64,000 nt of DNA from Rhodospirillales bacterium (GTDB lineage: Bacteria > Pseudomonadota > Alphaproteobacteria > UBA8366 > JADFVY01), in assembly GCA_020356105.1 (NCBI GenBank), contig CP070634.1:3306465-3370464 (forward strand), in the 5' to 3' direction. Each line of letters starts with the position of its first letter. Position 1 is the first letter of the stretch. The notes beneath the pieces are model-generated. The model did not search any database, was not told where the DNA came from, and was given only the letters and a program-made list of their open reading frames with translations. Of the stretch, positions 52,497-55,184 are shown piece by piece. The translations under genes were made by a program, and so were the position numbers.

Positions 52497-53000
52497 ATGG
52501 GGATGACGCTCGAGCGAGCCGGTAGCCGGACGGTCAATCCGCTCGATCTGCTGGAAGAACTGGCCAGTACGCAGGGCTGGCCGCATATCCGCGCTGCGGA
52601 TGATGAGTTCGTGACCGAACCATCCCGGCGGTGGTGCGCCTACAAGCTGCATTTCATCTGGCAGGAGGATTTGAATGCGCTGCACCTTCACTGCGGCATT
52701 GATATCCGTGTGCCCGAGGAAAAACGGCGGGCGATCAACGACCTCCTGGCCTCGATCAACCAACGGCTGTGGCTTGGCCATTTCGAGGTGGCCGCGGACG
52801 ACCCGATGCCGACATTCCGCCATACGCTCCTGACGCGCGGGCAATTCGCTCCCGGCGTCGAGCAGCTCGAGGATTTGGTCGAGGTCGCTCTCGACGAATG
52901 CGACAGATACTACCCGGCATTCCAATTCGTCCTGTGGGCGGGTCATCCACCCGATCAGGCGATTTCGGCGGCGCTGATCGAGACGGTCGGCGAGGCGTGA
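52497..53000 (+). CDS. YbjN domain-containing protein
   Basis: A 167-residue soluble protein of the YbjN family in its alphaproteobacterial form. Typical strings are NPLDLLEELASTQGWPHIR near the start, LHLHCGIDIRVPEEKR in the centre, and GRFRHTL-like features (TFRHTLLTRG). YbjN resembles type III secretion chaperones in fold, and its function is not settled. The start at 52497 is fixed by GAAGGGGGT 5 bases upstream; earlier in-frame starts exist. It precedes proC by 7 bases. Confidence 0.85.
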   Translation: MGMTLERAGSRTVNPLDLLEELASTQGWPHIRAADDEFVTEPSRRWCAYKLHFIWQEDLNALHLHCGIDIRVPEEKRRAINDLLASINQRLWLGHFEVAADDPMPTFRHTLLTRGQFAPGVEQLEDLVEVALDECDRYYPAFQFVLWAGHPPDQAISAALIETVGEA

Positions 53001-54329: not shown

Positions 54330-54400
54330 TTCGCCCCATCTATAAGGGGGACGGTATGATCAGGCCGGTCATACCCGAGATCGCATCAGGGAGTTCGAGC

Positions 54401-55042
54401 ATGGCAAAGAAACCATCGGCCCCGAAGTCGGGGGCAGGCAAGGGCGGCGCCAAGGATATCGAGACCAGGCTGGTCGACGCCATGCTGTCGCTTGTCGAGA
54501 CCGAGGGCTGGCGCGGCACGACGGTAGCGGGGATCGCCCACGCCGCAGGGGTGCCGTTGTCAGACCTGCATCCGAAATATGGCTCGCGACTGGCGATCGT
54601 CGCGGCGTACATGCGCCGTATCGACAGGGCGGTCGTCACGGCGGATTTCGGGTTCGGACCCGAAGACTCAGCGCGTGACCGGCTGTTTGAGGTCATGATG
54701 CGGCGATTCGATGCGCTTCGCCTGCATCGCGAGGCGCTGCGGCGCATCCGCGCGGGCATCATGGCGGACCCGCCCGCCGCGCTCGCGCTGCTGCCGGTCA
54801 TCGGCTGCTCCATGGCGTGGACGCTCGAGGCGGCGGAGATCCCTTCGGACGGCGCCTCCGGGGGCCTGAAGGCTGCGGGTCTGACCGCGGTGTGGGGCAA
54901 GACCCTTCAAGTCTGGCTCGAGGACGAGACACCGGATCTCGCGCGGACGATGGCCGCACTCGACCGCAATCTGGGCCGCGCCAGCCGGGTTGCCGAGGTG
55001 CTGTTCGGACGGCGCGGCCGGCCCACGGCGGAGGCCGCCTGA
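54401..55042 (+). CDS. TetR-type regulator with COQ9-like features
   Basis: A 213-residue protein: a Lys/Ala/Gly-rich N-terminus, a TetR-like HTH (about 20-70, with GWRGTTVAGIAHAAGVPLSD), and a helical C-domain containing RDRLFEVMMRRFDALRLHRE. This arrangement is shared by alphaproteobacterial TetR regulators found next to phasin genes and by the TetR-fold ubiquinone factor COQ9. Whether it binds DNA or a lipid cannot be told from sequence. AGGGAG precedes the ATG at 54401; ATG at 54356 is an alternative. It lies directly upstream of the phasin promoter. Confidence 0.75.
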   Translation: MAKKPSAPKSGAGKGGAKDIETRLVDAMLSLVETEGWRGTTVAGIAHAAGVPLSDLHPKYGSRLAIVAAYMRRIDRAVVTADFGFGPEDSARDRLFEVMMRRFDALRLHREALRRIRAGIMADPPAALALLPVIGCSMAWTLEAAEIPSDGASGGLKAAGLTAVWGKTLQVWLEDETPDLARTMAALDRNLGRASRVAEVLFGRRGRPTAEAA

Positions 55043-55068
55043 CGCGCTGTATGTGCACCGCACAAATT

Positions 55069-55083
55069 TGCTGCAACGCAACA
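55069..55083 (+). promoter_or_regulatory. Operator copy 1 upstream of the phasin promoter
   Basis: TGCTGCAACGCAACA matches copy 2 in 14 of 15 bases. It lies just before the -35 box. TGC/GCA-rich sites of this kind are reported for PhaR-type regulators of polyhydroxyalkanoate granule genes; assignment here is inference. Confidence 0.6.
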
Positions 55084-55091
55084 TTTTTTTC

Positions 55092-55119
55092 TTGACGCCT
55101 TGAATTCGGTCCCTATAAT
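55092..55119 (+). promoter_or_regulatory. Sigma-70 promoter of the phasin gene
   Basis: TTGACG (55092-55097) and a perfect TATAAT (55114-55119) are spaced by 16 bases. The expected transcription start lies near 55126, inside or next to operator copy 2. This is the strongest promoter match in the window. Confidence 0.8.
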
Positions 55120-55126
55120 TCCGAAA

Positions 55127-55141
55127 TGCTGCAGCGCAACA
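55127..55141 (+). promoter_or_regulatory. Operator copy 2 at the phasin transcription start
   Basis: TGCTGCAGCGCAACA differs from copy 1 by one base and starts 58 bases after it. Bound protein would block the start of transcription. A third, degenerate version in the other orientation is suggested at 55148-55163 (GCGTTGTGCATCGCAA). Confidence 0.6.
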
Positions 55142-55184
55142 TGATGCGTTGTGCATCGCAACCAGGAATTCAGGAGACACGAAA

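Follow-up and report, generated by a model that had tools for sequence, protein, structure and literature searches.

The window, i.e. the whole stretch of 64 kb that was analysed, contains a phasin gene preceded by a gene for a TetR-type protein, and the gap of 142 bp between the end of the latter (55042) and the start of the former (55185) houses four putative operator boxes (Table 1). An earlier reading of the DNA without database searches (the sequence-only reading) had described this region as a phasin promoter bracketed by two 15-base operators with a looser third copy downstream. The downstream gene is indeed a phasin gene according to its Phasin_2 match, the two 15-mers, TGCTGCAACGCAACA and TGCTGCAGCGCAACA, differ by a single base and enclose TTGACG-N16-TATAAT, and the third copy is real. 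What did not hold was the form of the sites; instead of 15-base direct repeats they are 17-bp palindromes, and there are four of them, box 0 having been overlooked. All four share the core TGCRNYGCA, in fuller form YTKN-TGC-RNY-GCA-NMAR, and their centres at 55058, 55076, 55134 and 55156 give spacings of 18, 58 and 22 bp. Box 2 spans about +1 to +15 and, being downstream of the -10 box, covers the start region, where the second operator had been placed. Judged from their positions, the boxes are sited where the promoter would be blocked.

Table 1. Features of the phasin locus (positions are those of the window; box centres are relative to the predicted start site, expected near 55126-55127).
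Feature	Position	Strand	Sequence	Remarks
TetR-fold/COQ9-like gene	54401..55042	+		Upstream neighbour; COQ9 20.1 bits, just under cut-off
PhaR box 0 (predicted)	55050..55066	.	TATGTGCACCGCACAAA	Centre about -69
PhaR box 1 (predicted)	55068..55084	.	TTGCTGCAACGCAACAT	Centre about -51, just upstream of -35; includes 15-mer 1
15-mer 1	55069-55083		TGCTGCAACGCAACA	From the sequence
-35 hexamer	55092..55097	+	TTGACG	From the sequence
-10 hexamer	55114..55119	+	TATAAT	From the sequence; spacer 16
PhaR box 2 (predicted)	55126..55142	.	ATGCTGCAGCGCAACAT	Centre about +7, over predicted start site; includes 15-mer 2
15-mer 2	55127-55141		TGCTGCAGCGCAACA	From the sequence
PhaR box 3 (predicted)	55148..55164	.	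GTTGTGCATCGCAACCA	Centre about +29; the looser third copy
Phasin gene, 142 aa	55185..55613	+		Pfam Phasin_2 9e-22; TIGR01841 over cut-off

When searching the 64 kb for positions with at most two mismatches to the 15-mer pattern solely these two sites appeared, with 0.28 expected in shuffled sequence, a rarity that on its own is weak evidence because the pattern was derived from the same sites. An independent test was made with a palindromic matrix of 47 sites from phasin promoters of families other than this one; its four best positions in the window are 55064-55088 (26.9), 55122-55146 (23.7), 55046-55070 (17.1) and 55144-55168 (10.3), the fourth (box 3) narrowly ahead of the next site (10.2 at 52668). 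The motif obtained from the aligned sites, T-K-N-TGC-RNY-GCA-N-M-A, equals the palindrome consensus of PhaR in R. eutropha, YTKNTGCRNYGCANMAR, as given in PMC12849132, to which all four boxes show one or two mismatches (one in box 0).

Alignments with related genomes showed that the array is conserved to different degrees. Four boxes are present in G001, of the same genus, with identical spacings (18, 58 and 22) and in G006 (19, 58 and 21), three together with a degenerate first box in G005 (where the fourth core match falls inside the upstream gene), three in G004 and two in G002. The core of box 0 is kept in G001, G006 and G004 and is one base off in G005, the core of box 3 is kept in G001, G005 and G006, and box 1 is conserved across the family and the order, while the start-site block ATGCTGCANCGCARCA (box 2) is the best conserved segment of the family alignment. 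Most relatives carry TTGAC at the position equivalent to the -35 box and all six aligned family members retain TATAWT as the -10 box. Beyond this family, elsewhere in the order and the class, the promoter is likewise bracketed by two boxes. The earlier suggestion of putative repressor sites on either side of the RNA polymerase footprint is supported.

The geometry was analysed in 24 promoters, comprising the phasin promoter at 55069-55163, 22 promoters in relatives and that of a second phasin gene of the same genome. The centres of the paired boxes are 55–67 bp apart (mean 59); the upstream box is centred 13–17 bp before the -35 box in 23 of the 24, and the downstream box 15–17 bp past the -10 box in 20 of the 24, a figure that is less certain because the -10 box is weakly called in some distant genomes and was looked for only between the two operator boxes. 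The outlier, G009, is probably a miscalled promoter. The operator geometry is near-constant in many phasin promoters, each operator being mostly centred some 15 bp beyond its neighbouring hexamer, either -35 or -10.

The genome harbours a single phaR gene (1280437-1281030), encoding a protein of 197 aa which matches the NCBIfam equivalog TIGR01848 (141.7 bits, cut-off 109) and holds both domains, PHB_acc_N and PHB_acc (PF07879 and PF05233, over cut-off). When comparing genomes that either harbour or lack PhaR, 24 of the 38 phasin loci in genomes with PhaR had at least two boxes and none of the six in genomes without it had a box pair (Fisher P 0.005, which is not an independent-sample probability because the genomes are related, the PhaR-less ones in the comparison being mostly small, AT-rich and distant). 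One good box is retained in a PhaR-less draft genome (G075), and in 7 of the 38 genomes with PhaR the 300 bp examined contain no intact box. The sites follow PhaR and not the TetR-type gene, since boxes persist where that gene is missing and no pair occurs in PhaR-less genomes. PhaR had been one of two candidates in the sequence-only reading, and both the identity of the motif with the published PhaR box and the co-occurrence of box pairs with PhaR point to it. PhaR binding, repression and release by PHB are known for other species (PMC12542648, PMC12849132, PMC3570403), and by analogy with these it is very probable that the phasin promoter is PhaR-controlled, with the boxes binding PhaR when PHB is lacking and thereby blocking RNA polymerase, and with PHB releasing PhaR; the release by granules, proposed earlier, is in line with homology and literature.

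According to the proposed mechanism PhaR would, without PHB, occupy all four boxes, two upstream of the -35 box and two at or after the start site. Dimers on boxes 1 and 2 would block RNA polymerase sterically at both ends of the promoter, while boxes 0 and 3 would contribute affinity, and the paired boxes are probably bound cooperatively. As PHB granules form PhaR would be drawn to the polymer and off the DNA, upon which phasin would be made and coat the granule.

That boxes flank the promoter on either side also led to the earlier suggestion of looping, where PhaR at the upstream and downstream boxes would be joined by dimer-dimer contacts in a lac-like loop of promoter DNA. Such an arrangement has been proposed for phaP1 of R. 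eutropha (PMC12849132) and PhaR binding has been reported to be sigmoid and cooperative (PMC3570403), but in vitro one box is enough for binding in S. meliloti (PMC12542648), the spacings of 55–67 bp show no significant helical phasing (R 0.43, P 0.14 relative to a null of equal spread), and they are accounted for by the nearly fixed distance of the operators from the two promoter hexamers. The 58 bp found here correspond to 5.5 turns, which makes boxes 1 and 2 face opposite sides of the DNA, and because of this and of the variation in spacing between species looping is possible but not indicated; we consider it unlikely.

The TetR-type protein encoded upstream was the second candidate, which would bind the boxes and repress the phasin gene. 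Its gene is located directly upstream of the phasin gene in many relatives, and in Pseudomonas phasin genes are under the control of PhaD, a protein of the TetR family (PMC9049629). The distribution across genomes argues against it, since at least two boxes are present at 11 of 14 assessable loci without the gene upstream compared to 11 of 22 with it, both boxes are present in G014 and G020 where no match to the gene is found anywhere, and G056 has kept the gene while PhaR and the boxes are absent. Boxes of this kind also occur at phaR, ppa and the second phasin gene, all far from the TetR-type gene. Among solved folds the predicted structure of the protein (pLDDT 88) comes closest to human COQ9, which provides the top Foldseek matches, followed by KstR and a TetR-like protein of Nitrosomonas. 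The segment of the protein's recognition helix shows little conservation and is short in the model. On distribution and fold the protein was rejected as regulator of the phasin gene, a role that appears highly improbable. That the repeats are chance or non-regulatory is the least credible explanation of all, for although the G+C-rich genome abounds in TGC/GCA words (32 matches to the reversed control of the published 17-mer) the four boxes are conserved at near-constant positions in the family and are the best four matrix sites of the window.

A TetR_N match persists in most homologues of the TetR-type protein and a COQ9 match is present in some; human COQ9 is a lipid-binding protein. Conservation is higher in the ligand-side motif, RDRLFDVLMRRFDAL, and in the COQ9-like C-terminus than in the putative DNA recognition-helix segment, and the protein may bind lipid rather than DNA. 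Across Alphaproteobacteria the gene is widely retained upstream of phasin genes, and its product may be a lipid-binding, granule-related protein. An imperfect 23-bp palindrome 5' of the gene, GGTATGATCAGGCCGGTCATACC (54353-54375), was considered as its own operator and rejected, as it is not conserved in the same-genus genome.

The possible regulon was sampled by pattern searches of the genome. The pattern TGYTGCNNNGCANCA gave 27 matches (both strands counted) against one for the reversed control, while the published 17-mer at one mismatch had limited specificity, with 114 matches compared to 32 for its reversed control. A search at phaR, phaC and other phasin genes had been proposed; phaR has two strong boxes in its own promoter, ATGCTGCGCAGCAAAAT and ATGTTGCGCAGCAAAAC, and the second phasin gene has two bracketing its promoter, around TTGACA, but upstream of the class I phaC no box was seen when the sequence was read by eye. 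Good matches were also found upstream of ppa, for which a PhaR site is likewise predicted in S. meliloti (PMC12542648), a MaoC hydratase, methylmalonyl-CoA mutase, serC, a small HTH gene, and the divergent crotonyl-CoA carboxylase/reductase (ccr) and mutase genes. The sites at 663354, 353953 and 1129759 have an ambiguous target gene or an intragenic position, and an Rfam search of ten loci revealed nothing credible resembling a PhaR-controlled small RNA like MmgR.

The divergent promoter of ccr and a methylmalonyl-CoA mutase-family CoA mutase contains a good PhaR-type box and a degenerate second one (L170 around 1500-1550, genome 2350239). The MaoC-domain hydratase has PhaR-type boxes directly 5' (L176 1450-1520, genome 2919638) and is possibly a PhaJ-like supplier of PHB monomers. 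The HTH protein, of 96 aa, is preceded by two such boxes 32 bp apart (L006, genome 493929 and 493961) and possibly acts as a secondary regulator under PhaR. Near phaR a small divergent gene without family match (L033 2776-3241) and a protein with a sub-cut-off resemblance to PhaC, a subunit of class III PHA synthase, and with PhaR-type boxes at its end (L174 1501-2748) were observed. A tentative proposal, which we would not yet favour over its contrary, is that PhaR of this lineage uses a conserved four-box array, i.e. two close pairs flanking the promoter, and governs ccr and the divergent mutase (ethylmalonyl-CoA entry), methylmalonyl-CoA mutase, the MaoC hydratase and ppa.

Among known systems the closest likeness is to phaP1 of R. 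eutropha H16, with the same palindrome, a sigma-70 promoter, a phasin gene, and sites upstream of the -35 box and at the start; according to PMC12849132, which cites Potter et al., one footprint lies directly upstream of the -35 box and one around the start, and steric hindrance is proposed, possibly aided by LacI-like dimer-dimer contacts. The two differ in that the inner pair is here accompanied by two additional outer boxes, while the predicted third site of R. eutropha is intragenic (PMC12849132). PhaR (AniA) of Sinorhizobium meliloti, which is sequestered by PHB, recognises the core YGCRNYGCR with AT-rich arms, and the core YGC-RNY-GCR, the arms, two copies per phasin promoter and ppa as predicted target are shared, but in phaP1 and phaP2 of that organism the two copies, either one sufficient for binding, flank the -35 box alone whereas the boxes here enclose the entire -35/-10 pair (PMC12542648). 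The motif also resembles CTGCNNNGCAG of R. sphaeroides (PMC12542648). In Bradyrhizobium diazoefficiens phaP1 has, as here, two boxes with a GC-N3-GC core, which in that organism both contribute to binding, but these are 17 nt apart around the -35 box with the proximal one overlapping the -10 box, in contrast to centres 58 bp apart (PMC10888616).

Since the motif is identical to the palindrome of R. eutropha and the layout to that of its phaP1, the locus is a well-conserved fresh example of a known switch, slightly different in its outer box pair and in that the boxes stay clear of the promoter hexamers. With it, a granule-sensing switch that is well studied in other bacteria is extended to an as yet unstudied lineage of Alphaproteobacteria. 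By the geometry rule, according to which the operators are mostly centred some 15 bp beyond the two hexamers, phasin genes repressed by PhaR can be predicted from the sequence by itself. For the predicted regulon, a direct tie is suggested from PHB granules to the crotonyl-CoA and propionyl-CoA carbon routes, and if the proposal of a four-box array and wider regulon is true, the state of the granules would directly set the use of acetyl-CoA and crotonyl-CoA.
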